DNA from: Leuctra nigra
Lineage: Eukaryota > Arthropoda > Insecta > Plecoptera > Leuctridae
NCBI GenBank assembly: GCA_934045905.1
Contig: OW203762.1
Location: 14,354,345 to 14,418,344 of the forward strand
DNA length: 64,000 nt
Reading direction: 5' to 3'
Shown: piece after piece, positions 1,612-44,822 of the stretch
Layout: every line of letters starts with the position of its first letter
How positions within the stretch are numbered: position 1 is the stretch's first letter
Notes under the pieces: model-generated
What the model saw: the letters and a program-made list of their open reading frames with translations, nothing else
Told to the model about the DNA's origin: nothing
Databases searched by the model: none
Translations under genes and position numbers: made by a program

Positions 1612-4600
1612 ATGGAAGTGAGGAGTGGGAAGAAGATGGATGATCGGGGAAGGAGCAAGCAGTATGTGGTCCGAGATGTACCGGCGTTGTCAGGCGTAAG
1701 TAGTGGTCCTCAGAGTGTTTTCAGATATCAATGTAATGCTCACTTGCTTAAAATATTTTTTTAAACTACGCCCAGTTTTTCAATACTCTGCTAAATTTTA
1801 AACAGTTGATTATAAGACTATGTTGCCTTGGCAACAACCAATGACGTTTCTTGAATGTCAGTTGAAACTTAACACCTACTGGTTTTTGCAGAGAATTGAA
1901 AAACTGGCCCTTAATTGAAAACCAATTTTGCTGACATAATTCATTTTATACAATGTGGTATTGAATTGTATTGCAAAAAATACAAAAAGTAAATTGTTCA
2001 AACATACCTACTCGTAAGACAAAAACAACACAATATTATAAATATGGTTAGGATGCTTAAATTTTCTATTAACTCAAGTGATAACCACAATTTGAGTTTT
2101 GAATTAAGAAATTATTTACCAAACTAAAACCTTTTTAATCTTAAATTATCGTGATTCGTTCTCACATTCCATTTTTCTCGTTGGTAAGAATTTACTCGAA
2201 GCCGTCTTTCAAATCGAAGTATTTGATCAATAAATCTCTTATCTATCAAGGCGATGTCTCCTGCCTGCTGTGTTTATATCTTTAGATTAACGACGCACGA
2301 AATTGCCTTATCGAGGCCATTGCTAAGAAAAGCTCAAGTATATAATTACCGGTGAAGTATGCAAGGTTAGGATCAATAGATAACGTGAGGTGCCGGGCAA
2401 CTAACACAAATTCACGTAGATTTGTTCGAAATCGTTTTACAGGCGACGAGAGTAAAGCAGCCGACACCAATGAAAACTGTTACTGGACAATTGGTGGAGA
2501 AAGAGGAGAAGAAGAAGCATTCGGAAGAGAGGATGGAAGAGAAGAAGGAAGAATTCGTGGACGGAGAGCAGTATTTAGCTGACATGAAGAGACGCGTGGA
2601 AGAGAGTAGGAGGGCGTGGGAAAGAAAGTGCACAGAAGAAACTCAGCCGAGAACTCAAGTTCAGCGGGTAAATGAGAGTTCCATAACTCACATAACTTTA
2701 ATTAGCTAAGAAAAGTTATACTTACAAATATACGTATTACATACTAACTTTTGAGGACTTTTTGTCCATATACTTTTTGATATTCTGGGAACGTAAGATC
2801 GGCGTTCCATTCGAAAAATTCAAATTCGAACATATTGACTTGCTGCGTTCACAATCAATTTTAATATGAATCTAGTGGAGCGGTCGCTCCACGCCAGCCA
2901 AGTCGTATGGCGCGCGCACACTCTCATATAAAGGCTGGAGCAAACCCACTTTTACTGTAAGCATCAAAGTGGCATTTTCGGCCTACTGGATCTCAAAATT
3001 GGGAAATATCACATTGTTGCAAAATCTCTTAATTTTGAGCTATGGCCCAACCCACCCAATATACCAAATTTGGTAACAATAGGATATGATGTTTGCGAGC
3101 TAGAGGGCCGTGAAAACAGTGAAATTGTACGGCTTTCTTCAGATGATTATAATAATGATTCATCTTCAAATAAATTCTGCGGTCTCAGCCACAGCCTAAA
3201 CGGCTGGGTCGATTGACCCGAAATTTTCACCATATATACAGCTCGTCTGCCTGATGATACCTTGCCCTCATGAATTTTTTGTGCCGCCATTTTGAAACCG
3301 GAAGTGACGTCATATCTCAAAAACGGCTTGACCGATCGGAACGAAATTTGCGCCAATCGATTCAGACGGTCCTCTTTACGAAATAACAATAGTAAAATTA
3401 AAGTTTTATAATTACTGAAACCGGAAATGACGTCATAGTTTTGCGAAATCTGCCTAAATTCACTTCCCCTTTATATAAAAACCAACTACATATTCAGAAG
3501 GCTTATAATGAAATATTAGTATTTATATACATATAAATACAATGTGTAAGAGCTTTCGCCGCCATTTTAAAAACCGGAAGTGATGCCATATCTCGAAAAC
3601 GGCTGGACCTATTGGAACGATGCTTTCGCAATTCTTCATGGAATATCACTTTAAGTTTATATTTAGCTCCAAACAATATTTTTCTTAGTAACTAATTCGG
3701 AAATGGCGTATTTTTTTAAAGGAATTAGTCATTGTTGCCCCAATAAGTTTTACAAGTTGTGTAAATAAACTAAAAAAATAAGTGATATCCCCATAAAAAA
3801 CACTCCGTGTAAAAAAAACAGCCAAGTCTCTTCAACTAAAAAAAATTATGAAATCTAAAAATTCTGCACTGAAACGTAGTGATATAAAAAAATGAGCCAA
3901 GTCAAACTTTATTTGAAAATTAAAAAATACTTGGCGCATCGTTTTTTTAGGGCATTGTAGGTATACTATAAGTATATGTATTTATATCTAGCCTATACTT
4001 CTAAGCTATTTATTTACACGATGCGCCAAGTATTTTTTAATTTTCAAATAAAGTTTGACTTGGCTCATTTTTTGATATCACTACGTTTCAGTGCAGAATT
4101 TTTAGATTTCATAATTTTGTTTAGTTGAAGATGACTTGGCTGTTTTTTTTACACGGAGTGTTTTTTATGGGGATCGATATTTATTCAGATATTAAAATGT
4201 GTATAATTCCTGTGATGTTCATCCTGTTTTCTCGCATTTCAGACTGGTGTCCGAGATAGCCCAGTCAGACCGTCTTCGGAGGCATCGCTCGAGTTCAAAA
4301 TGGCGGCGACAACCAAGATGGTTGTCACAGAACACAGGTCTTCACGAGACAAGATGATGCCGACACCAACACCAAGTCCAAGAATCAACACTGAACTCGC
4401 TTTAACAAGTCCAAGTCCTGTGCCAAGAAGAAGAACTAAGAGTCCTAGCAAACCCGCAAGCAAGTCAAGTCAACAACCAAGTTTAGAAACCAAACCGACG
4501 TCGCGAGTAGAGTTGATGACACAGTGTAGTGTGAAGGACAAGGCAGTGCAGACGACGTCTGATGTTAGGTCTTTACCTGTCTCAAGAGTCAAGGCTCCAC

Positions 4601-7600
4601 CTCGATCAGAACTCATTCTGGCAACAATAGCACAGCTCCACAGACTCTCCAGGTCGGAGTTCGACATGGCAGAGAGTTCAGAGCTCGAGGAGCTGTCCAG
4701 AACAGAACACAGAAATACAAGTGCAGAGCAAGATGGGGATCCTAGGTCAGGAGGGAGAAATCCAAGTCCAGTGCAGAGGGATGCACGAATACCAGAACTT
4801 ACTTCGCAGAAAGACACACCTAGTTCAAAACTCAAAGAGGTTGTCAGAACAGAACAATATGAGACTTTCCAACATGAAAAGAAGTATGTTACCAGAACAG
4901 AAGTAATTACTGCGCCCAGATCGGAATTGAAGTCAGTTCCTAGATTCGGACTGCAGAGTGAACTTAGTTCAGAGAACATGGAGGTACCTGCACCTAAATC
5001 AATACTGAAGACTGCACCTAAATCAGAACTTCATACTTCGTCTAGAACAGAAATGCACCCTGTAACTACAGTGTACAAGGAGGTGCCTACTCCTAGATCA
5101 GAAATGAAGCCTGTACCTACAGTGTACAAGGAGGTGCCTCCTCCTAGATCAGAAATGAAGCCTGTACCTACAGTGTACAAGGAGGTACCTACACCTAGAT
5201 CAGAACTGAAGCCTGTACCTACAGTGTACAAGGAGTCTTTTTCTAGATCAGAAATGAAGCCTGTACCTAAAACGCACAAGGAGGTACCTACTCCTAGATC
5301 CGAACTGAAGCCAGTACCTACAATGCACAAAGAGGTACCTACTCCTAGATCAGAAGTAAAGATTACACCGAAACAAGCATTCGACTCTGATCAGAAAGCA
5401 GCTCCTTCCCAGACGTACAAGGTAATGTCAGAAATATACTGCGGTAATCGCGGTATTTTTCCTAACACATTGAATTTACAGCCCAAGTTAAACAAAAAGT
5501 GTTGAAATTAACAATGCGTGCATTTTGACGCATTTTAATACAACAATAATTAATGATCAATAATCTATTCGATTAGGGCCGGTTTTTAAATAGTCTATTA
5601 AAAAACCGGTCATTCAGGGTTGACTGTTTAAAATTTAATTTAGCATATTATTGGCCAGTTCTTCAATACTCTGCTAAAAAAACAGTAATTATGTTCGGTC
5701 GATCAAAGAATCTCATTGGTTACTGCAATAGAAATACAGTCCTAATCAGCTCTTAAAAATTTAACAGAGCATTTTAAGACAAAAATTTTAAGACAAAAAT
5801 TTAACAGAGCACCTTAGGGCCAGTTTTTCATTGCTCTGCTAAATTTAAACAGTGTATTACGACTCGATTGCCACGGCCAAAACCAATTATATTCCTATTA
5901 CCGAAAAGTAACTTAACTTACCATCTACGTAACGTATCTGTTTAACTTAGCATCTTAATTAACAGAGCATTGAAACATTATCAAGCCAGCTTTTAGGTCC
6001 ACTCCACAGGTACTACATCCTCCTAAAATATATTTTGTATAAACCAAACTTGAGCCAATATTATTCTGAGTCAGTCAAAGAATATATGAAAATAGGGCAA
6101 AAGATGCCAATAATGAAATCAGTGATCGATATTCAAAGCTAACAATGAAAACATTGTATTTTACTTTGATGTTCAAGAAAAATCGAATTTTAAGGGGAAT
6201 GCATTAAACTCAAAGCTCTGACTGATGTGAAATGTTTGCTAGACGCCCGTACGTGAGACGACGCCGACGCCGGGCGACGAGCACGAGGGCGTCGTGCTGC
6301 GACGTCGGGACGCCTCCACGCGGCGGAGTGAAATGGAGGACAGGAAGATGAAGGTTCGCTCGCTCCTGGAGGAGATGGACGAGGATCTGGAGCGATGGGG
6401 GAAGAGGAATCAGGACTTCATCAGGTCCTCGAGCAGGCAGAGTCTTGGAGTGCTGCCGGTGACACCAGTTAGTACTACCATTATGTGAAGACTGGAGGGG
6501 GGCGGGGGGTATGGGGGGCAATCCTCCGATTCCCGTTTAGCTTCTTCTTTGATAGTATTGATCTCCAAAGGGTAGGTAGGTATATACTTCATGTCAAAGT
6601 GAATGGAATACCAAGAGTATCGAGTCCCATGGCGCCCGACGAAGGTTCCAGGGGGGGGGGGGGGGGGGACACGTCTTGATGTTCACCTCGTGGATGTGAA
6701 TGGAAACTTAAATCTGTAAAAATCTGGATAATATGATTTTGTGTCTCTTTTATTATAGTATTTTAGTTTTAAATTTGAGTACCTGCCGCTGCCACCATTT
6801 GTGAAATTGATTATTAAATTCCGTGTTGCCTATAAATTGTTACGTTTTCGCATTAATTCATCTGTGGCCAGATTCACAAAAAGTATTATCTCCTAATACG
6901 TACTATCTTTGGTATTATCTTTCATTTAACATGGTGTTTTTGGTATTAAATCAAAAGATAATACGTATTAGCAAATAATACTTTTTGTGAATCTGGCCCC
7001 TGGGGATTAAGTTTTAACACATTTTCGTGCAATTACAAATTCAAAGAATACCTAAATAAAAAAATACATTTCTTTTCTAAACATAGAGATAATCTGATAC
7101 CGGTATTTTTCATTTACAGACAGAGCAGACAGCTGTACCTTTGCTGACGTGAGTATTGGCTTCAATATTATTACATCATAGAACAGAATACATAATAAAT
7201 AATAATGTATTGTTGTGCACAACAGAAACTTCTGGGATAATTCCCATACCACACAACAAGTGACTAATGTACAGGGCTAGTCTTAAATACTCTGCTAACT
7301 TTTAAAAAGTTGGTTAGGACTGTATTGTCATGGCAACAACCAAACCAATGACATTCCTAGAATGACTGTGTTACCTTAATTACTGGTTTTAGCAGAGTAT
7401 TGAAAAACTGGGCCTGAATACTTATTAAATATTTCAACAGAAATATCCACACTTCGATACTAAGCATAAGTTCCTTACAAGCCAGGTTGGCTCCAGCTCG
7501 AATCATATTGTGCTTATAGAACTAAAGTCTGTGTCATCTTCTGATACATGTATTGTTCTCACTTACCCTATCGTAAAAATCCTAAAAGTGTCAAAACAGA

Positions 7601-10600
7601 CCTCAGCTTTGGAATGCTCTCTGTATCAACTCTGCCGACCCCTGCCGAGTCAATAGACCCCCAAATGTGTCTACGTTTTCACAGACACAAGATCTATTTT
7701 TTCTGAACTAATCTTTATAACCCTTATAGAAAGCTAAGAGCTACAAGGCTGTAAGCGACATCGAACATGGGATTGGCAATAAATGGTCGCAGATACAATG
7801 AGAGCAAATGATTTTACGATACATTATCAGTGTGCCTAACTTTGACATTGAACTAGATATCCATCACGTGACATGCCGCCATCTTGTTCTGCAGGCAGCC
7901 ACGTGACTTGTCGAGCCGCGGCTACATGCGCAAGAGCGTGCGCGTGAGGTCAAGACAGACGATGCACATGATGACAGCCTCCTTGATGTACCTGCGAGCG
8001 ATCAACAGTCGTCAGCCGTTCTTCCTCGCCTCCAACATGGCGGCGGCAAACATCTTCGGCGACATCGTCTTCCGGACAGCGTCGACGACGACATTCCTAC
8101 ATCTCATCCACAGAAACACGGACGATCAAGTTGGTTATCAGCAACTTCTTACTTTGAGTGGCAAAGCGGACTTTGGTTTGATGCGATGTTGCAGATCTTT
8201 CATGAAGGTCAAAGAGGATTATGAGGTTAACGATGATCTTAATTGGTGTGGTGATTTTGATGATTTTGATTTTGTTGTTTACACCAGTTCCATTGTCGAC
8301 GATGACGTTGAAATGTGTATGGATAAGAACGTGTCACTGTTAAGTTCAAATTCAGAAGGTGTGTTTCATTTCCAAGATTCGACCCTTGTTCGTCAGGGAT
8401 TAGAAGAAATAGTTGGTTTCAAGAAACTTTTACAAGGACTGAAGGATAGGTTTTCAGTTAATCTTGAGGAATCCCGTAAAGTAGTCAAGGCAACTGTAGA
8501 AAAGTTCAAAGTTATGTCTCAAAATGTGGAACTAGCTGCGATGAAGTCCGCACTTGATCTCCAACCGTCCAGAACTAAAGTATTATCCACACTTCGCGAC
8601 ATGGAGTTGGTCGACGAGTTGTCTTCGTGCGACGATTTCATCTCTCAGCTGCATCTCTACGTCGACCAAGCAGACGAGCAGGCGATTGACGACTTGATCC
8701 TCGAGGAGATCAAGCAGGCTCTGGACGTCGGCGATGATTCGGAGGCTGTGGAAGTGTTGGAAGAGTTGTACACTTTGATGAGTAGTTGGTGGGCTGACGA
8801 GGCGGTGTGCTGTGATTGGTTCACGGAGCAGTCGGGAGTGTGGCAGACCATTGTGGCGGGTAGAATGGAGAGGGTGGCCGGCAAAGTGGACAAAGTGATA
8901 AAACAAGTTGTGGTAGACACAGATTCCTTCAGAACAGACAACACTACTTTCAGAATTGACACGTTGCCTGGTAAAGTAGACATTCCTGATAGATTAGCCA
9001 TGGTGTCTGGTAAAATGGACAAGACTGACAGTATGCACATCGTGTTTGGTGAGATAGACAGACCCACAACTGACAATGCTACTTTCAGACTTGACCCAAT
9101 GTCTGGCAAAGTGGACCAGTCTAACGCAACAAAGCAAGTTGTGACAAACAAAGATTCCTTCAGAACAGACAATGCCACTTCCAGAATTGACACGGTGTCT
9201 GGCAAAGTCGACAAGCCTGATAGTATAAACATCGTGTTTACTAAAGTAGACAAGCCCAGAACAGACATGGCTACTTCCAGAATTGACACCATGGCTAATA
9301 AAGTGGACAAGCCTGATAGTATGAACATCGTGTTTACTAAAGAAGACAAGCCCAGAACAGACATGGCTACTTCCAGAATTGACACCATGGCTAATAAAGT
9401 GGACAAGCCTGATAGTATGAACATCGTGTTTGGTAAGATAGACAGGCCCACAACTGACAATGAGACTTTCCGAACAGACACGATGTCCGGCAAGAAAGAA
9501 ATTTCTAACGTAACAAAGCAAGTTGTGACAAACAAAGATTCCTTCAAAACAGACAATGCTATTTCCAGAATTGACCCCATGGCTAATAAAGTGGACAAGC
9601 CTGATAGAATAAACATCGTATTTGGTAAGATTGACAAGCCTAAAACTGACAATGAGACTTTCCGAACAGACACGATGTCCAGCAAAGTGGACAAGCCTGA
9701 TAGAATAGCCATGGTGTCCGGTAAAGTAGAAAAGCCCAGAACTGACATTGAGACTGTCAGAAAAGTATCTGTGTCCGGCATTGTGGACAAGTCTAACGTA
9801 ACAAAGCAAGTTGTGGTAGACAAAGACTCCTTTAGGACTGACAATGCTTCTGTCAGAATTGACCCGATGCCTGGTAAAGTGAACAAGCCTGATAGTATGA
9901 ATATCGTGTTTGGTAAAGTAGACAAGCCCAAAAATGACAATGAGACTTTCCGAAGAGACACTGAGTCTGGAAAAGTGGAAAAGTCTGACAGAATAGAAGA
10001 AGTGACAGTTAGAACAGACCAGGACACTTTCAGAAGAGACGCGATGTCTGGTAAAGTAGACAAACCTGATGAAATAGACGAGAAGTCTGTTAAAACAGGC
10101 AACGATACTTTCAGAATAGACACGGTGTCTAGCAAAGTGGACAAGTCTGACAGTATAAACAACGAGTATGACAGTACGGACGAAGTGTCCGAGATAAAAG
10201 TCAATGAATCTGATGGAAAAGACAAGCTTGTCATCACAGATATATTGTCAAGAGAAGTCCACGGTGTATCAGGAAAAGTCGACAAGGGGTTTGGCAAAAT
10301 AGACAATGCATCGAAGAATAGTGAGGTCGAGAAAGAGGTAATCAGATTTGAAGGAGGTTCGGTTCGCAAGTTACTTGTTGATATTCAAAGAGGGAAGGTA
10401 GTAAATGTCGTTGTCAAAGATGAAACTACGCGAGTGGTAGCTGCCAAAGTGCTTCAGGGTCTTAAAGTAGAACATTACGTCTGTGTCGGAGCCAAGGAGT
10501 TGGTTTTAAAGAGCGATGAAGTGTTCCAAGACGTGTCGAAGTATCTTGTGATTGTTTGCGACGAACAACTGTCGGATGAAGAAGTGAACGTTGTCGTCAG

Positions 10601-13600
10601 AGACATCGAAAAGATCCTAACAGAGCGTAGTTCAGTGCGATGCATTATTGTGTCAACGAAAAATGACAACTTGTCTCAGAAACTGCAACGTACTATTTTA
10701 GATTTTGCTAAAATCTATGACAGTTGTCTTTGGAACGATCTCACCGAGGAATCGAAAGCATTCTTGAGATCTCGCCAAGTGTTCTTCCAAGGTTACAGAA
10801 TGCCGCTGAATCTTTTGTTTCCGGACTCGTGTCAGTTGTCCTCTGTAGTGAATGGCACCACCTTGTTGAAATTGTCAAAAGAAGAATGCGTTATCGGTCA
10901 GGAGTTGAGTTTGTCAGTTGAATACTTTGTTCCGAGACGACTGAAGCGAAATGATGTGATCAAACATGTCGCCTCTTTGACCGACATTTCTGACAGAATA
11001 GTTCTCTTGTCGGGAGAATCAGACATGGGCAAGAACACTCTCATTACCCATTTAGCTGAATCAGTCAAACTTCTGGATCCAACCGCATGGGTTTTATGCA
11101 TCAACCTTAAAGACTCAACATCGTATTTAGCCACATTAAACCCCAATCAAATAGATAAAAACACATCTATCGATTTCTTGACGCAATGTGCTCGTGTAAA
11201 TAACAGTTTAGAAGCAGCACTGTTCAAGGAGCGTTTGCTCTCAAATGGAAAGATTGTGGCATTTATCGAATGCACTGATGAAACGTTTCGTCTGTACGAA
11301 GATGTTGTTTGCTCCTTGCTGACTCATCTGACTAAAACTAGGATCGACAATGTCTGGATAACGTCAAGCAATATGTCACAGAAATGGTTGGAGGAGGTTT
11401 TGGGAGTAAAAGCATTTGCTCTACAACCATTCTCTTCTGGAGAACAGAAGCTGTTTTTCACGACGTATTGGACCAACGATTTCCCGAGTGATGGACTCTT
11501 CTTGAACACTTTTGTCGACCAAGTAATGAAACACTCTGAAAGCATTTCAGACAGAGAGAACATTGCGCCACCAACCCCTCTGCAGTCACTAGTTTTAGCA
11601 GAGTACTTTGACGAATATCTTAGAGACCATGCAAAACTGCCGGAGAAAGTCAACATGTTCAACTTCATTGAGAAATATGTACAGAAAAATATAGAAAAGC
11701 ATTGTTTTCGAAAAGTAAATCAAAGTTCAACGAATGAAGCTCAAATGTTCTGGGAGAATCACGTAACAGCTGCTCTAAACCTTCTTCTGCATCCAGATGA
11801 ATTCCTGGCGCTCAATTTGCAGAATACAGACAATTACTCGCGCTTCTGCAAGAACATGGAAGAAAGTCAAGAGACTATTGGAATTGTTAAATTTGTTGGC
11901 AAGAAACCTCACTTCATCCTGAAATCTTGCGCCGAGTACTTTGTAGCCATTTGGATGTCTCAGAACTACACCTCAAGTCGGGACTTCCTGCGTGAGAGTC
12001 TCTTCGAACCGAGATTCAATGTCGTCAAGAACTTCTTGGACCAGCATCTGGCAAGCAAGATCGAGTTGCATGACGCTGTTGTCAACCGCGATCTGCCAAC
12101 TGTCAACCGACTGCTGTCATCTGGTGTCAATGTCAACCAGACCGACGAGGGCGGGAGGACGGCGTTGCACCTAGCCGCTGGAGGCTCTTGTCCTCTGATA
12201 GCCCAGACGTTGCTGTCAAACGGGGCGAGGGTAGACGTCGTCGACAAGCTCTTGGAGTGGAGGCCGCTTCAATACGCCGACAGAGCTCAAGCTTGGACCG
12301 TGGCGAAGATGATTTTACCTCTCGGAGGTCAAGTCGAGGACTTGGTCGACGCGAAGAAGAACATTCAACTGGAGGTGTTCAACGAGTTTGTGAGTTTCTT
12401 ACGTAACAGCAGCTCGAGTTGTGTGGAGCTCATGATCCTTGCATCGCGCCACGGAGACTTGCCCGTGGTCCAGTTCTTGGTCGACGAGTGTGGGGCTGAC
12501 GTCAGCTGCTGGGGGGAGGAGGACACGAGCCCCATGCACGAGGGCGCGGACATGGGACACATCGATGTCCTGCGGTATCTGCTCAAACACAACGCATCTG
12601 TGACCATTGCAGATGCAGACAACAACCTCCCACTGCATTACGCAGCTAGTAAAGGTCACACGAAGGCGATGAAGTTTCTCCTGGATCAAGGTTCACCAGT
12701 AAACGCATTCAACATCGAAGGACTAACTCCTCTCCTCGGCGCCACCTGGTGTGGTGACACGAAACCCCTCAAGTTCCTCCTAACTCGAGGAGCTGACGTC
12801 AACGCAGGGAACTTGAAGAGAGTGACGCCACTCCTCAACGCCATCCAACACGCTCACATCGACGCCGCCAAGCTGCTGATCAGCAACGGCGCCGACGTGA
12901 ACGCGGTCAGCGCCAAGGGGTGGACGCCGTTGTTGCGCGCGATGGACCAAGGTGATCTGCATCTCATCGCGGACCTCATGCAGCACGGAGCGACGATGTC
13001 GACGACGCCCTCGACGACTCTGACGGCGCGTCAGAGGGACATGTACCTCCAGCTCGCGGCGTACGAAGGAGATGCGACGCTGGTGAGGCGGCTGGTGGAC
13101 GACGGCGCCGACGTCAACTGCTGCAACACCCGAGGCACAACGCCACTCCACTGGGCCGTGCTCAGAGGCAACTTGCACGCTGTCAGAACACTCATAGAAC
13201 TAGATGCCAATGTGAACGCCGTGGATAACTACGGAGTTACTCCTGTATTTTACGTCTGTGACATGTTCCATGAAGGCGACGATATGTCTTCGCTTGAGTA
13301 TCTATACGACATGCTCGAGATGCTGAAGAGTTTGCTGATGAACGGAGGCGATGTCGGGGCAACGGCCCATGACGGCGAAGACGTCAAGAACTACGCCACA
13401 AGACGTCAATCTCCGGCCGACGTTTACATTGAGGACCTCGAAGAGATCTCAGAAGATGAATACGACGAGAGGTTCAAGGAATACAGCCATGAGCTGCTTT
13501 ACCGTGCGGTCAAAGATGGAAACGTCCAGAGTTTAAAATATTTCAAGGAGAATGGAATGAATATCAATATACTTACAAGAGACAATGACACCGTCCTCCA

Positions 13601-13946
13601 TTTATCAGCTCAGTGGGGTCAAATTGACATTCTGAAGTATCTAATCGACGAAGGCGCTGATTTGGAGGCTGTGAACGCGAACCACGACACTGTCCTTCAT
13701 CGGGCGTGTTACAGCGGCGACGTCGACGTGGTCAAGTACTTGGTCAAGCTGCGAGTCGACGTGAACCCTGTCAACGTGTACGGGAACACGCCTCTTCATC
13801 GGGCTGCTGTCCGCGGCAAGCTGGAGGTCGTCAAGTACTTGGCGGAGAACGGGGCTGACCTCCAGGTCGTCAACAAGAAGGGGCAGCGAGCTGTTGACCG
13901 AGCGGCTCAGAGTGTAGTCGATTATCTTACTTCTGTCAGTAACTAG
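1612..13946 (+). CDS. Large NACHT/STAND-like ankyrin-repeat protein, six coding exons
   Basis: Exons 1612-1695, 2443-2667, 4243-5421, 6243-6467, 7120-7148 and 7895-13946 join in frame (phases 0,0,0,0,2) into about 2,597 aa. The start ATG has A at -3 and an in-frame TGA just upstream. Order: charged Lys/Glu segment (about 29-103), Ser/Pro-rich region with 17-aa repeats (about 370-482), charged helix (about 525-560), a region resembling a degenerate nuclease-like domain (about 600-723), a 32-aa repeat linker (about 913-1337), a P-loop region (Walker A-like G1621-E-S-D-M-G-K-N-T; Walker B-like I1701-V-A-F-I-E-C-T-D-E) and about 14 ankyrin repeats (about 1970-2590). The C-terminus resembles arthropod NACHT-ankyrin proteins, probably intracellular sensors or scaffolds; the ligand is unknown. 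The large last exon is secure. Fusion to exons 1-5 rests on splice phase only, so two genes or alternative transcripts remain possible. Confidence 0.68.
1771..1910. mobile_element. MITE, CCCAGTTTTTCAAT family, copy 1 (intron 1)
   Basis: The ends CCCAGTTTTTCAATACTCTG and CAGAGAATTGAAAAACTGG are inverted repeats. The interior (TGTTGCCTTGGCAACAACCA) is shared with the copies near 7273 and 47603. About 140 bp, non-coding. Confidence 0.72.
3000..3720. mobile_element. Dispersed-repeat-like segment with three CCGGAAGTGACGTCAT motifs
   Basis: The module ACCGGAAGTGACGTCATATC, followed by TC(A/G)AAAACGGCT and a basic-looking tail, occurs near 3298 and 3575, with a shorter relative at 3420. The internal repetition and lack of coding potential suggest a degraded transposon fragment in intron 2 of the ankyrin gene. 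No termini or target duplications were identified. Confidence 0.45.
3789..4172. mobile_element. Foldback MITE with long terminal inverted repeats (intron 2)
   Basis: Left end CCCCATAAAAAACACTCCGT and right end ACGGAGTGTTTTTTATGGGG are exact complements. The arms continue inward for about 165 bp each, to a short AT-rich loop near 3955-4015. There is no transposase frame. Flanking bases do not give a convincing target duplication longer than AT. It lies immediately upstream of exon 3 of the ankyrin gene. Confidence 0.85.
5041..5380 (+). repeat. 17-aa coding tandem repeat (51-bp units) in exon 3
   Basis: Six to seven in-frame copies of a unit like K-P-V-P-T-V-Y-K-E-V-P-T-P-R-S-E-(L/M) occur back to back, with 51-bp spacing at DNA level. 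Looser R-S-E-L/M motifs extend upstream through the exon. The units are proline- and charge-rich and predicted disordered. DNA identity between units is high, which suggests recent slippage or unequal exchange. Confidence 0.85.
5652..5977. mobile_element. Two abutting MITE copies, CCAGTTTTTCAAT family (intron 3)
   Basis: GGCCAGTTCTTCAATACTCT starts a first copy near 5652 that ends in TTAACAGAGCATTTT-like sequence. A second begins at about 5817 (GGGCCAGTTTTTCATTGCTC) and ends near 5977 with TTAACAGAGCATTGAAAC. Both match the copy at 1771-1910, but the tandem arrangement is rearranged. Confidence 0.6.
6647..6669. repeat. Poly-G tract
   Basis: A run of G residues lies in intron 4 of the ankyrin gene. 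Such tracts are prone to slippage, so the exact length in the assembly is uncertain. Confidence 0.9.
6865..6999. mobile_element. MITE, GGCCAGATTCACAAAAAGTA family, copy 1 (intron 4)
   Basis: Termini GGCCAGATTCACAAAAAGTA and TACTTTTTGTGAATCTGGCC are exact inverted repeats, extending inward through CTAATACGTA. About 133 bp in total. A second, more diverged copy is at 60691-60821. Non-coding. Confidence 0.85.
7120..7148 (+). other. 29-nt micro-exon of the ankyrin gene
   Basis: A 29-base exon encoding T-E-Q-T-A-V-P-L-L plus two bases lies between acceptor CATTTACAG and donor GTGAGT. It enters at phase 0 and leaves at phase 2, exactly what is needed to join exon 4 to the 6-kb exon starting at 7895. 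It is the only link I found between the N-terminal exons and the NACHT-ankyrin exon. Confidence 0.6.
7273..7415. mobile_element. MITE, CAGTTTTTCAAT family, copy 4 (intron 5)
   Basis: Left end GGGCTAGTCTTAAATACTCT and right end CAGAGTATTGAAAAACTGGG are diverged inverted repeats. The interior GTCATGGCAACAACC matches the copy at 1771. Non-coding, about 143 bp. Confidence 0.65.
8885..10340 (+). repeat. Coding repeat linker, about 32-aa units, in the ankyrin gene
   Basis: The segment is built from degenerate units carrying R-I-D-T-M, K-V-D-K-P-D and N-I-V-F-G-K motifs. Two adjacent 96-bp units at about 9252-9347 and 9348-9443 are almost identical. Residues are Asp, Lys, Thr and Ser rich with no Cys, probably a flexible spacer between the N-terminal part and the P-loop region. 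It is stop-free in two antisense frames, which gives spurious antisense open frames up to 570 codons. Confidence 0.85.
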
Positions 13947-16641: not shown

Positions 16642-21736
<5,095 letters not shown>

Positions 21737-25879: not shown

Positions 25880-28800
25880 TTAGATGTCGAAGTCTCGTTG
25901 GGTGCTCGCCAAGACTACTCGGTCGATGTCGAAGGAGTTGACCAATCCCTCAGGCAGTGTGGCGTACGTCAGAGCCTTCCAGTCTCGATCCAACGCTTCG
26001 CTCACTTGCTGTGGAGGAGAAAACATGAAAGGTGTTTGTGAAAAAGCTTTGGCGCATTGTGTCAAGAGAAGGCAGCATAAGAATATGATGACGAAGAAGG
26101 AGATGATGAAAGAAAGAAGATGATGATAAAGGGGCCGAAGAAAGACAGAAAGTGGGAAAAAGATTAATGAAGTCTAAGTAGTCAGTGAAAATTCAATGCG
26201 CCAAAGCTATATTTTTAATTTTTTTAATTTTTAGTTTTAGTTTTATTTTAAGTTGTGTTTTAAATTAATTTAAAACATTTATTTTGGTTGTAAATAATAC
26301 ATTTTGCTTAATTTTTATATTTCAAAGAATTTGTATTATCTCTTTTAATTTTTTTAATTTTGTTAAAGTGTGCAATGATGGTTCACATAATTAGATCGAT
26401 TTGTTTAAATTTGGGCACAACGTTAGGTTTTTAGTGTTGTGCTTGGGGGCAGTAACTTGGTGGCCGAGAAAATGATTTCAGGAATTTTAAGTGCGAAAAA
26501 GTTTAAACAATATATTATTGCTTGGCCCTTCTTTTAGATCTCAATCCTTTTAGGTGCGAAGGTGCTTTGGCCGTCTTTATACAAGTTTTTGATTTTGTAC
26601 AATGTTTTGCACTGCAAAAGTATTACATATTATAACATTTACTTTCTTGGATTCATGAGTTGAACAGGTCATACAAACAAGTCTTTGACAAACTCGACGG
26701 ACTTACCCGCTGCAGAGATGCCAAGTTGTGCTGAAGGTCACTGATGTCTGGACCGAGAACATCGAGGCGCTTCAAACCACGACCTCGGAGCCGGGCCATG
26801 GCAACGATGTTGTGAGCAGCGTATTGGTAGCCTGCAACATGCCACTCCATGAGCATCAAACCACACATACAACGCCTGACATAACACATAACGCCTTCTA
26901 CATACAAGGAAGCTGATCCATAGTGACGACTTGTGGTCGGACAAATCACCTAACAGCACCATCTCCTCTAGATTAGGACTTGCGGTTGGACAATTCACCT
27001 AGCAGCACCATCTCCTCTAGATTAGGACTTGCGGTTGGACAACTCACCTAGCAGCACCATCTCCTCTAGATTAGGACTTGCGGTTGGACAATTCACCTAG
27101 CAGCACCATCTCCTCTAGATTAGGACTTGCGGTTGGACAACTCACCTAGCAGCACCATCTCCTCTAGATTAGGACTTGCGGTTGGACAATTCACCTAGCA
27201 GCACCATCTCCTCTAGATTAGGACTTGTGGTTGGACAATTCACCTAGCAACACCATCTCCTCTAGATTAGGACTTGCGGTTGGACAATTCACCTAGCAGC
27301 ACCATCTCCTCTAGATTAGGACTTGCGGTTGGACAACTCACCTAGCAGCACCATCTCCTCTAGATTAGGACTTGTGGTTGGACAACTCACCTAGAAGCAC
27401 CATCTCCTCTAGATTAGGACTTGTGGTTGGACAACTCACCTAGCAGCACCATCTCCTCTAGATTAGGACTTGTGGTTGGACAACTCACCTAGCAGCACCA
27501 TCTCCTCTAGATTAGGACTTGCGGTTGGACAACTCACCTAACAGCACCATCTCCTCTAGATTAGGACTTGCGGTTGGACAACTCACCTAGCAGCACCATC
27601 TCCTCTAGATTAGGACTTGCGGTTGGACAACTCACCTAGCAGCACCATCTCCTCTAGATTAGGACTTGCGGTTGGACAACTCACCTAGCAGCACCATCCC
27701 CTCTAGATTAGGACTTGTGGTTGGACAACTCACCTAGCAGCACCATCTCCTCTAGATTAGGACTTGCGGTTGGACAATTCACCTAGCAGCACCATCTCCT
27801 CTAGATTAGGACTTGCGGTTGGACAACTCACCTAGCAGCACCATCTCCTCTAGATTAGGACTTGCGGTGGGACAACTCACCTAGCAGCACCATCTCCTCT
27901 AGATTAGGACTTGCGGTTGGACAATTCACCTAGCAGCACCATCTCCTCTAGATTAGGACTTGTGGTTGGACAACTCACCTAGCAGACCATCTCCTCTAGA
28001 TTAGGACTTGCGGTTGGACAACTCACCTAGCAGCACCATCTCCTCTAGATTAGGACTTGCGGTCGGACAACTCACCTAGCAGCACCATCTCCTCTAGATT
28101 AGGACTTGCGGTTGGACAACTCACCTAGCAGCACCATCTCCTCTAGATTAGGACTTGCGCTTGGACAATTCACCTAGCAGCACCATCTCCTCTAGATTAG
28201 GACTTGTGGTTGGACAACTCACCTAGCAGCACCATCTCCTCTAGATTAGGACTTGTGGTTGGACAACTCACCTAGCAGCACCATCTCCTCTAGATTAGGA
28301 CTTGCGGTTGGACAACTCACCTAACAGCACCATCTCCTCCAGATTAGGACTTGCGGTTGGACAACTCACCTAGCAGCACCATCTCCTCTAGATTAGGACT
28401 TGCGCTTGGACAATTCACCTAGCAGCACCATCTCCTCTAGATTAGGACTTGCGGTTGGACAACTCACCTAGCAGCACCATCTCCTCTAGATTAGGACTTG
28501 CGGTTGGACAACTCACCTAGCAGCACCATCTCCTCTTGATTAGGACTTGCGGTTGGACAACTCACCTAGCAGCACCATCTCCTCTAGATTAGGACTTGCG
28601 GTCGGACAACTCACCTAGCAGCACCATCTCCTCTAGATTAGGACTTGCGGTTGGACAACTCACCTAGCAGCACCATCTCCTCTAGATTAGGACTTGCGGT
28701 TGGACAACTCACCTAGCAGCACCATCTCCTCTAGATTAGGACTTGCGGTCGGACAACTCACCTAGCAGCACCATCTCCTCTAGATTAGGACTTGCGTTCG

Positions 28801-31800
28801 GACAACTCACCTAGCAGCACCATCTCCTCTAGATTAGGACTTATGGTTGGACAACTCACCTAGCAGCACCATCTCCTCTAGATTAGGACTTGAGGTTGGA
28901 CAACTCACCTAGCAGCACCATCTCCTCTAGATTAGGACTTGTGGTTGGACAACTCACCTAGCAGCACCATCTCCTCTAGATTAGGACTTGTGGTTGGACA
29001 ACTCACCTAGCAGCACCATCTCCTCTAGATTAGGACTTGTGGTTGGACAACTCATCTAGCAGACCATCTCCTCTAGATTAGGACTTGCGCTTGGACAATT
29101 CACCTAGCAGCACCATCTCCTCTAGATTAGGACTTGCGGTTGGACAACTCACCTAGCAGACCATCTCCTCTAGATTAGGACTTGCGGTCGGACAACTCAC
29201 CTAGCAGCACCATCTCCTCTAGATTAGGACTTGCGGTTGGACAACTCACCTAGCAGCACCATCTCCTCTAGATTAGGACTTGTGGTTGGACAACTCACCT
29301 CAGCAGCACCATCTCCTCCAGATTAGGACTTGTGGTTGGACAACTCACCTAGCAGACCATCTCCTCTAGATTAGGACTTGCGGTTGGACAACTCACCTAG
29401 CAGCACCATCTCCTCTAGATTAGGACTTGTGGTTGGACAACTCACCTAGCAGCACCATCTCCTCTAGATTAGGGCACAGCCAACACGCCATGACGAACGG
29501 ATCGGTGGGATCTTCGAAGTCCTCGTTTAAACAAGGAGACACAAAACCTTCTTCCACTGATTCCATGACCCAGATGGATCGAAGTGTCCCTGAATACCAT
29601 TCTGAGAGTTGGTGGAAAGCTGCGTAGTTGACATGCTGTAAATGCATAGAACTATGTTTTAGATGAATGTTCACAGGGCTCATTTGAAAGTTAGAAGCAC
29701 GATGCCACCCACTCTACTGGTTAGATGCTGTTGGGTGGCAAAACTTATATCCTGTAAAACAATTTTACAATAATATTTAAGGTGCGGTAGGTAGGTTTAA
29801 AAAAAATTGATGCTAAATTAAAACTTTTAAGGATAAGCAAAGTTGAAAAATGAAGTCAGTAGCATCAAGTTTCATAATTTAATTGGCTACAAGTTCAAAG
29901 TTGAATATTACTGTGTGAGGAAACACATGAGAAATGTTCCTTATTTGATTGTAATTTTGCTAAAAAACTTTAAAACAGACTAAACATGATCGAGCGTCTC
30001 AAACTTCAGCTTGGAAACTCTGGGAAAAGTCTGTCAACTTCCAAACTCGCAGATTTTCATTGGGCAAAAGATTTTAGAAGACATATTAGGAAGATGATTA
30101 AAATTAAGTTAATTTACCTAAACAATGTAGGTACTAAATGCTACTCACATTGCCACAGAAGAAGCTCTTCAGATGTGTCAGTGGCATCGCCCGTTTCAGG
30201 ATTTCTGATTGAAGTTCTGCGGCGCCTTCGAGCGAGTGAATGAGATTGATTCGCAGCTCACAACTTGGGCTGCAATCAAGAGTCAAGATTTACAGCATTG
30301 CAGAGAGCCTGTCACATCGAGAGTAAGACGAGATGTGCCACAACACTAACTTGCGCTGAGTGAAGTTTGTCCATCCCGAGTTGGTAGTTCCGGGATGAGC
30401 TTCTGGAATTCCGTGCACGTGGATGATGAGCCGAACAAGTCCTGAACTTCCAAAAGCCATCAGAAACCTGTCGCTTACAAAGTCATAGTCTATGCTGAGT
30501 GCCTAGAAAAAAAATCATTAAATTAGGTAGGTATCTATCTTCTTATTTAAATTAACTGATTTTAAGTGAGATTTACCAAACACATTCCATGTGTTTTTTG
30601 TTACCCTTCCCAACACAGAACATTTAATCAATCGATCCAATTTTGTACGCACACTAAAAACATCAACGTGGATAATTTTTTAACAAGACCCCTCTAGTCT
30701 AACGAACAAAAAGTTTAAAAGTTTTGCCACAGAAAGCTACAGTTCAGGTACAAATTGACATTCATGATTAAATCCATTCACCCTACACTACCAACCAAGC
30801 CCAGAAGTTTGTCAGCTTTATGTTGATTCACTGAAAAGAGTATGAGCTGTTAGATACAGACTGCTTGGTTGGAGCTTTAAGCTGAGGGTAGCGTGTGTTT
30901 GGGAACATTCTCATTTCTCATAGTACAATCAAGAAGACCAGCAGTCGGAGACATATTGACTAGATTCCACTCTCTAGCATGGCCAGAGATAGGTCAATCC
31001 ATGCCCCACCGAGTGGAGTCAACTAGGTATGTTAAGTGAAGTGGTGAATACATTACCTGAAGACACTGAAAAGATTGGAAGAAAGTAGAGTTCAAGTCAG
31101 GAAGTTCGTAGTTATCTGGATCGTTCTTAACGGTGGCAAGACCAAGGTGGCGTAGTGAGCAAGCTTGATGGTCCTGAAGAGCATCTAAGACTGGTTTGGA
31201 ATAGGAGACGAGCTCTTCGGATGATCCAAAGCAGAGAGCTTCCATGCTGCGACATTGCTGAACTATCAGCTGCAGAGGTTTGATAATGCACCTGTAGAAC
31301 ATATAGGTAGGTATAGAAAACATAAATGTGTGTCAGATAGCAACAATTAGCGACAGAAGGCCAGTGACAGCAAACTCAAATCGAAAGGGGAGGAGAAATG
31401 CAACAGGCTTCTCTTGCAATTCTCTTGCAATTTGAGTTAGGTACCTATTATATAAATTGCCAAATTGTCGAGACACGACATCCGATAATAATCGTACCTA
31501 AGTCTTAACTCGGCTGTTTATGGAGCATCAAAACGAGATGAAACGAGAATCAGTGCTATGATCATAAACTAGGGATGATTGATAAATCATTGCATGGGCT
31601 CACCTCTCAAAGAAGTCGAGTTTTCCTTCCCCCAACTGAATGCATAATTGGTACACAGAATGATCAGCCTTCTCTGGATTCTGAAATATGCAATTGCTTG
31701 GCTCCAGGATCAGTCTTCGCAGATTAATATTGTTGCATATTTCTTTCAAAATTCTTGCAACCTCAAACAGACATTGAGGGTCTAAAGAATTAAACGTAAG

Positions 31801-32034
31801 GGTAACATTGCGTAATCTTTTAGCACAGCAGCTGGTAAGAAATCTTGCTCGCGAAACACTGTCTTCATCGTTTGTTTTTATATTGAAGTGAATATTCTGC
31901 CAGTGGCTGTTTTGAAATAACGCCCATCTCCATGATTTGCACGTTGAAGAAGCTTTAATTCTTTCTTCATGAGATAAATATGAAAATAATTCTAATAAAA
32001 CTACACTGGGCAAACAGTTCCATGAAATCTCCAT
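25880..32034 (-). CDS. F-box protein, FBXO33 type, seven exons
   Basis: Coding exons in transcript order are 32034-31604, 31291-31057, 30502-30351, 30269-30149, 29635-29446, 26831-26707 and 26008-25880. All junction phases agree, giving 460 aa. The start is the ATG in AAAAATGGAG; the frame is open upstream without another ATG. An F-box (about residues 5-48: W-N-C-L-P-S-V-V-L-L-E-L-F-S-Y-L, later C-K-S-W-R-W-A-L-F) should bind Skp1 in an SCF ubiquitin ligase. The rest is leucine-rich-like: L-R-H-L-G-L-A-T-V-K, S-I-D-Y-D-F-V-S-D, L-V-R-L-I-I-H-V-H, then P-N-L-E-E-M-V-L-L-G-Y and A-R-L-R-G-R-G-L-K-R-L. The order resembles FBXO33; FBXO39 is a second possibility. The substrate is unknown. Oddity: intron 5 is almost entirely a minisatellite of its own splice junction. 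Confidence 0.85.
26928..29473 (-). repeat. 49-bp minisatellite, about 52 copies, amplifying an exon-intron junction
   Basis: A 49-bp unit repeats head-to-tail with very high identity; a few units are 48 or 50 bp. On the gene strand the unit reads CTAATCTAGAGGAGATGGTG, then CTGCTAG, then GTGAGTTGTCC and a short tail. The first 28 bases are the coding end of exon 5 (N-L-E-E-M-V-L-L), and GTGAGT is its splice donor. The 5'-most copy (ending at 29473) is the functional exon end at 29446; the others form intron 5. About ten copies carry GTGAAT instead of GTGAGT, the 3'-most has GTGATT, and one near 29051 has lost the GT. Confidence 0.97.
29446..29635 (-). other. Exon 5 of the F-box gene, source of the minisatellite
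   Basis: Acceptor TTTACAG precedes H-V-N-Y-A-A-F-H-Q-L. The exon ends C-W-L-C-P-N-L-E-E-M-V-L-L plus one base before GTGAGT. Reading through the donor gives G-E-L-S-N-H-K-S then TAA, so retention of the next unit truncates the protein after eight codons. Confidence 0.85.
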
Positions 32035-44130: not shown

Positions 44131-44423
44131 GGAACAAGTATGGCTGAGTGGTAGCGCTCTGAACTTGTATTCCGGAGGCCCGCGGGTTCGATTCCCGCGG
44201 CCGACCTTCCTGACTGGGTTTTTTCGTGGTATTCCCTCAGTCGACAGGCAAATGCTGGGAAGGTACCATACTAATAGGCCACGACCGCCTTCTTCCCACC
44301 TTCCATCCTTACCTACTCTTCACCGTCATCTCCCAATCATCATCGAAATCATTCATCCGTCACCATTAGCCTCGCTGCAGAACAGTGCGACGTTAAGCCC
44401 CCGAAGAAAATGATAATAATATG
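44131..44423 (+). mobile_element. tRNA-derived SINE, copy A
   Basis: A polymerase III box A (TGGCTGAGTGGT) and box B (GGTTCGATTCC) lie in a tRNA-like head of about 75 bases. The body has the landmark words CAGTCGACAGGCAAATGCTG, TAATAGGCCACGACCGCC and GCAGAACAGTGCGACGTTAA, and the 3' end is GATAATAATA. The cloverleaf is imperfect, as expected for a SINE rather than a working tRNA gene. Confidence 0.85.
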
Positions 44424-44540
44424 CTGTCAATTATAGCGGCCGCAAATGAATCATATGAACCTGTATTTTTTATATGGGAAAACATTATAAAGTATATTTT
44501 TGCTCACGGTCAGATCTTTCTCTAAAACTACACAGGTCCA

Positions 44541-44822
44541 TTTTTTTGTCTGGGGCTTAACGTCGCACTGTTCTGCAGCGAGGCTAATGGCGACGGATGA
44601 ATGATTATGATGATGATTGGGAGATGATGGTGAAGAATAGGTAAGGATGGAAGGTGGGAAGGAGGCGGTCATGGCCTATTAGTAGGGTACCTTCCCAGCA
44701 TTTGCCTGTCGACTGAGGGAAAACCACGAAAAAACCCCGGTCAGGAAGGACGGCCGCGGGAATCGAACCCGGGCCTCCGGAATACAAGTTCCGAGCGTTA
44801 CCACTCAGCCAACCTGTTCCGT
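44541..44822 (-). mobile_element. tRNA-derived SINE, copy B, facing copy A
   Basis: On the minus strand the same head (TTGGCTGAGTGGTAACG, GGGTTCGATTCC) and body appear with few differences from copy A. The two 3' ends point at each other with about 120 bp between them, so a read-through RNA could form a long hairpin. Confidence 0.85.

Follow-up and report, generated by a model that had tools for sequence, protein, structure and literature searches.

The FBXO33 gene and its junction array

The window analysed here is a 64,000-nucleotide stretch of the genome of the plecopteran Leuctra nigra (contig OW203762.1, positions 14,354,345 to 14,418,344). Its reverse strand carries a predicted FBXO33 gene, and at the junction of the fifth exon with the fifth intron of this gene lies a tandem array of 52 copies of a 49-bp unit, each unit consisting of the last 28 bases of exon 5 and the first 21 bases of intron 5. 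The coding region is formed from 7 exons that join into an open frame of 460 residues, all of the introns being of the GT-AG type. The predicted protein contains an F-box-like domain (E 5e-10) and matches 17 FBXO33-like proteins of insects and a mantis shrimp, the best of which (E 9.9e-116) is 47% identical over 99% of the query. Having both an F-box and full-length similarity, the gene falls within FBXO33, in keeping with an earlier note on this DNA that had described it as an SCF adaptor. The frame of exon 1, searched by itself as a protein, gave no match, and in a tree the window protein took no clear place among the insects and one crustacean. All seven matches of the protein in the genome lie at the locus of the array; FBXO33 is a single-copy gene in the assembly, and a paralogue as the ancestral state is ruled out by the same matches.

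The join between exons 5 and 6 (..CPNLEEMVLL-G-YQ..) is free of insertions and deletions in the alignment with the 17 relatives, which agrees with an exon 5 that ends at 29446; one isoform stops at this point. Gly377, the residue at the join, does not vary in the alignment, and conserved protein sequence is encoded by the exonic half of the 49-bp unit. Isoform X2 of Lycorma departs from the alignment directly after this glycine, a hint that the planthopper gene has an exon boundary there too. As Gly377 is invariant and the exonic half is conserved coding sequence, the gene appears to have given rise to the array rather than the array to the gene.

Tandem Repeats Finder (TRF) places the array at 26928-29473, with a period of 49, 52.0 copies and 96% matches. 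Parsing unit by unit, together with the exon model, bears out what the earlier note had read from the letters, namely a unit of 28 exonic and 21 intronic bases in sense orientation with the gene, present in about 50 copies. Its first copy takes in the final 28 bases of exon 5. Most of the units (47) are 49 bp long, the last one being cut at that length, while four have 48 bp and one has 50 bp. The copies fall into 20 sequence types in irregular order and differ from one another at a mean of 1.76 of 49 sites; the coding first copy is no outlier, with a mean of 1.43 differences to the others. This low divergence indicates that the array is either young or homogenised. A 60-base query of the unit against the genome (536 Mb, 144 contigs) gave 52 reported matches, counts of this kind being lower bounds, and all 52 lie at the FBXO33 array, which rules out a dispersed satellite.

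No significant sign of selection on the splice positions within the unit (invariance of the branch and AG|GT positions) was seen (p 0.15), and the lower variability of the exonic half compared with the intronic half reached p 0.06 by cells and 0.16 by types. A structured RNA was rejected as a candidate, three stretches folding less stably than the shuffle mean (z 1.15 to 1.82). The positions of the features are collected in Table 1.

Table 1. Predicted FBXO33 gene, its array and related arrays in the genome (window positions unless a contig or locus is given)
Feature	Position	Strand	Remark
Tandem array	26929..29473	-	52 copies x 49 bp; unit-by-unit parsing
First unit	29425..29473	-	coding end of exon 5 at 29473-29446; predicted true donor from 29445
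FBXO33 coding region	25880..32034	-	predicted; 7 exons, 460 aa
FBXO33 exon 1	32034-31604	-	predicted
FBXO33 exon 2	31291-31057	-	predicted
FBXO33 exon 3	30502-30351	-	predicted
FBXO33 exon 4	30269-30149	-	predicted
FBXO33 exon 5	29635-29446	-	predicted; 190 nt
FBXO33 exon 6	26831-26707	-	predicted; intron 5's own acceptor directly before
FBXO33 exon 7	26008-25880	-	predicted
FBXO33 intron 5	26832..29445	-	2614 nt; ~118 nt minus 51 extra units
L026, Rab26-like gene	G000 C1:25784500-25791500		a donor array at the end of each of two consecutive exons (33-bp and 71-bp periods)
L061, DDC-like exon	G000 C1:63752500-63760000		donor array, ~43 copies, 38-bp period
L028, cadherin exon	G000 C1:27886000-27895500		48-copy 54-bp array of predicted acceptor junction before the exon
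L067, predicted exon	L067:2544-3002 and 3159-3431		flanked by an acceptor array and a donor array

Donor copies and read-through

The donors of the 52 copies comprise 39 of the sequence TAGGTGAGT, one GAGGTGAGT and ten TAGGTGAAT, with TAGGTGATT in the last copy and TAGATGAGT in copy 9, where the GT is lost. Their pairing energies with the 5' end of U1 are -10.3 kcal/mol for 39 copies, -10.5 for one, -6.8 for ten and -6.6 for one, falling to -3.6 kcal/mol in the copy that lacks GT. Among 189 GT sites of the gene region outside the array, 0.5% pair as strongly as the strong array donors. The earlier note had most copies reading CTAG|GTGAGT with identical flanks; 40 copies have the full GTGAGT and GT is kept in 51, but 11 donors are weaker, one is dead and the copies are not all identical. 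A weakening of donors toward the 3' half of the array was not significant (p 0.10). Weak donors are concentrated in the last eight copies (six of eight, against six of 44 elsewhere), a contrast picked out post hoc that shared descent would explain equally well.

Use of any of the 51 distal donor positions, the dead copy 9 included, would give the same truncated protein of 384 residues, ending GELSNHKS. The TAA after eight codons is the one that the earlier note had read from the letters.

Similar arrays elsewhere in the genome

Tandem triples of the donor word AGGTGAGT occur at 914 places in the genome compared with 344 for the reversed word, the places counted being copies and not arrays; 63 of the control places listed belong to one 9-bp array. 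As a single word AGGTGAGT is found 13,609 times and its reverse 17,307 times. For AGGTAAGT the triples number 161 against 117 for the reversed word, with 17,945 against 31,748 single words. Among the matches listed, AGGTGAGT has five distinct places in the first 28 Mb of contig C1 and its control two. The position of the arrays is more telling than the word counts.

Position was read at 15 donor-motif arrays, made up of the five listed AGGTGAGT arrays and 10 of the 11 listed AGGTAAGT places; the remaining AGGTAAGT place (C5:37603960) and eight CAGGTGAGT places were left out. Twelve of the 15 lie at an apparent junction of a coding exon, 11 of them at a donor (L024, L025, L026, L027, L059, L060, L061, L062, L063, L065 and L067) and one, L028, at an acceptor of the other strand, its array having been detected only because the strand opposite to the exon contains AGGTGAGT. 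At L064, L066 and L068 no coding junction was seen. If the chance level is assumed to be 30, 40 or 50%, 11 donors out of 15 correspond to p 0.0007, 0.009 and 0.06, respectively.

Several of the adjoining exons can be identified: Rab26 at L026 (Pfam Ras 1.7e-7, PDB 2.9e-13), cadherin at L028 (1.8e-7), FLVCR at L062 (5.2e-17), DDC at L061 (1.8e-31) and ABCA at L063 (1.4e-37). The matches of L024 (CopC 6.6e-4, Pfam 0.012) are weak and were taken as chance; the exons of L025 and L060 have no significant Pfam or PDB match, those of L027, L059 and L065 have no Pfam match, and the junction of L067 was assigned by its open frame. The first donor copy at L061 is a GC donor (GGATCAAG|GCAAGT), and GC is also found in its commonest unit (24 of 41).

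TRF, applied to 178.5 kb made up of the window plus the 15 loci (period 25-100, at least three copies), revealed six further minisatellites, two of which lie at junctions and were thus found without a motif search. The 71-bp array starts where the following Rab26 exon ends (..LTFMAIA|R, GCCAG|GTGCGT), and a 50-bp array of 8.9 units ends at the acceptor of the L067 exon. When the two Rab26 exons are joined at the first donor, their 84-residue alignment to Rab-26 is free of any net gap, as predicted if the exon-side copy is used.

Read-through meets a stop in all 13 donor arrays (FBXO33, the 11 loci and the second Rab26 array). Ten of the 13 have periods that are not multiples of three, which is about the chance expectation. 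Units often kept in the mRNA would be under pressure to stay open and in frame; no sign of such pressure was seen, in line with units that are left out of the mRNA, and the simplest account is use of the exon-side copy with the remainder spliced out as intron.

Of the three arrays at which no junction was seen, L066 is very regular, with 56 copies of a 47-bp unit containing AGGTAAGT and no visible coding exon. The matches listed include the same unit a second time, at a distance of about 40 kb (G000 C5:37603960).

The unit as a candidate mini-intron

Read from donor to donor the unit has the form GTGAGT...CTAAT...CTAG, the branch A lying 24 nt upstream of the following donor. The earlier note does not mention the AG at the end of each unit or its CTAAT branch-point match. 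It raises the possibility that the array erases itself, the units acting as mini-introns or ratchet points that are removed piecemeal, so that any first choice of donor would eventually lead to the correct mRNA. In line with this, all 51 blocks that distal donors would retain start with GT and end with AG. An acceptor matrix was trained on 10 introns of the window, including those of a p66/GATAD2-like gene (16642-21700, reverse strand; P66_CC E 4e-21). It scores the consensus unit at 6.0, within the range of 1.2 to 13.1 given by 11 real acceptors under leave-one-out; the 52 copies average 5.4 (range -2.0 to 9.4), a mean that 5.4% of the remaining 6,887 AGs of the window attain. Simulated duplications of 28+21 bases at 461 other AGGT sites never combined an exact CTAAT with an equally good acceptor, and did so four times with a 4/5 match.

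The pyrimidine tract of the unit is weak, and an intron of 49 nt may be too short for splicing. Introns of 40-50 nt do occur in flies, where they are spliced more slowly (PMC5762160), and splicing has been described for human introns with lengths of 43 and 49 nt (PMC4463651). In a toy model of re-splicing over ten rounds, simplified by holding the strength of the upstream donor after each step, the share of runs that end in the correct mRNA is 98.5-99.8% with spliceable 49-nt introns and 58-60% with unspliceable ones; without re-splicing the figure is 3-13%, and without unit acceptors 3% or less.

The feature does not extend to the related arrays as a rule. A loose mini-intron test, with thresholds chosen after the data had been seen, is passed by FBXO33, L024 and, just at the threshold, L025 among the 12 donor arrays at junctions, and also by L064, an array without a junction. 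Measured against a chance rate of 16 in 461, this excess has p 0.007, or 0.05 when FBXO33 is omitted. The mini-intron may help some arrays, but it does not explain the class of junction arrays, and as a rule for that class it was rejected.

Origin and persistence of the array

The reading preferred here, to which we give a probability of about 0.52, is that the FBXO33 array is a junction minisatellite belonging to a class that is likely genome-wide, with the exon-side donor likely used and the other 51 copies discarded as intron. The array would have grown from the exon 5/intron 5 junction by repeated local duplication, through slippage or unequal exchange; growth out of the junction is suggested by the exonic half of the unit, which codes for conserved protein. 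Such arrays would persist since, under exon definition, only the exon-side copy joins the next exon. In FBXO33 a wrongly chosen donor would leave behind a block that could itself be removed as an intron, possibly a second safety net, although this is not general among the junction arrays. Use of the exon-side donor fits exon definition, given the 190 nt of exon 5, and also fits the outcome described for a 68-bp junction duplication in CBS (PMC2630376).

Several observations weigh against this reading. Intron definition would favour the last donor, and the donor used in FBXO33 is itself predicted from sequence. Some enrichment at donors is built into the survey, because a donor word was used to seek the arrays, and junction position was read at donor-word arrays only. 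Seven of the 12 junction assignments rest on an open frame that reaches the donor. The word counts against reversed controls are mixed and alone are no proof of a class: triples of CAGGTGAGT go in the opposite direction (115 against 201 for the reversed word), and AGGTAAGT has seven distinct places on C1 and C2 among the matches listed compared with ten for its control, and so no excess. A wider formulation is more doubtful, namely that the genome repeatedly grows minisatellites from splice junctions, both donors and acceptors, of which only the exon-side copy is read, the array being self-erasing where its unit has a branch point. If it is true, a splice junction can be copied fifty-fold without harm, which would offer a route for intron growth and perhaps intron birth. 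The CAGGTGAGT control also counts against such recurrence.

Among the alternatives, piecemeal self-erasure appears unlikely as the main explanation. The complete GTGAGT, CTAAT and acceptor of each unit, their rarity among simulated duplications, the GT...AG form of every retained block and the short fly introns all speak for it. It is opposed by the weak pyrimidine tract, the lower toy-model yield with unspliceable 49-nt introns, the restriction of the feature to three of 12 junction donor arrays plus one array elsewhere, and the lack of significant invariance at the branch and AG|GT positions. In flies no AGGT-to-AGGT recursive junctions are reported to have been found (PMC6110457).

The proposal of the earlier note, a tunable switch in which donor choice sets the level of FBXO33 and copy number is the dial, is less probable still. 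Every distal position leads to the same early stop, which would make donor choice binary in effect, and the title of Lievers 2001 ties the 31-bp repeat of human CBS to reduced activity. However, the same layout at predicted junctions of unrelated genes, together with stops in 13 of 13 read-throughs, fits tolerance better than a switch private to one gene; arrays that look genome-wide weaken the idea of gene-specific tuning, and the splice positions show no sign of constraint (p 0.15). An assembly artefact that inflated or invented the copy number is very improbable. Tandem arrays are difficult to assemble, but this assembly is very contiguous, the contig of the array measuring 57 Mb, and the 20 unit types are in irregular order. 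Many different arrays of like sort are also present in the genome.

Relation to known systems

Judged by its sequence, the FBXO33 array is the same kind of object as a variable number tandem repeat (VNTR) of human CBS, c.1444_1467+7(16_21), which has a 31-bp unit in 16 to 21 copies (PMC2630376). By its name that unit consists of the last 24 coding and first 7 intron bases, with a donor in each repeat. The unit of FBXO33 likewise holds an exon end, an intron start and a donor, the last in 51 of 52 copies. It differs in having 52 copies of 49 bp and in the recurrence of like arrays in the Leuctra nigra genome. The FBXO33 unit also contains CTAAT and a fair acceptor. Several donors of the human CBS VNTR are reportedly used.

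The same report describes a further CBS variant, 844ins68, in which a splice junction is duplicated and the upstream extra exon segment removed (PMC2630376). The duplicated junction resembles that of FBXO33 and removal of the extra segment fits exon-side choice, but 844ins68 has one extra copy, of an intron-exon junction. The ratchet points of Drosophila are AG|GT sites followed, about 50 nt further on, by a second strong donor, up to seven in a long intron, with segments nearly all >1 kb (PMC8605326; PMC6110457). AG|GT is juxtaposed in 51 of 52 FBXO33 copies with a strong donor about 50 nt on; here, however, 51 candidate sites stand 49 nt apart in a 2614-nt intron, and long segments are absent.

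One model of intron gain holds that a GT...AG intron can be created when a segment containing AGGT, or a junction, is duplicated in tandem (PMC4974935). A segment with AGGT or a junction would similarly have been duplicated in FBXO33, but one duplication in the model yields one new intron, whereas FBXO33 has dozens of copies inside an existing one. Fungal stwintrons undergo consecutive splicing reactions on neighbouring introns, the internal intron interrupting a splice element of the outer one (PMC8469720). The FBXO33 units only abut at AG|GT, and their donors are intact before splicing.

Three features seem to be new, namely the number of copies, the presence of a complete mini-intron in every unit and, most of all, the recurrence of such arrays, no literature search having been aimed at the class. 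The choice of one donor from among near-identical neighbours is a long-standing question, usually addressed with few copies in minigenes. FBXO33, Rab26, DDC, FLVCR and ABCA are natural genes with about 6 to 52 donor copies at predicted junctions, and would allow an exon-side rule, intron definition and re-splicing to be told apart in natural transcripts. If the class is recurrent, it would bear on intron growth and origin, and such arrays could confuse gene annotation.

Other features of the window

On the forward strand an open frame of 2024 residues with ankyrin repeats (7872-13946) contains a 96-bp coding repeat (9161-9961). A 51-bp repeat of six copies (5042-5355, forward strand) lies inside an open frame and encodes a repeat of 17 residues. 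At 44141-44811 a pair of inverted elements has arms that are 93-95% complementary, the outer ends looking tRNA-derived by eye.

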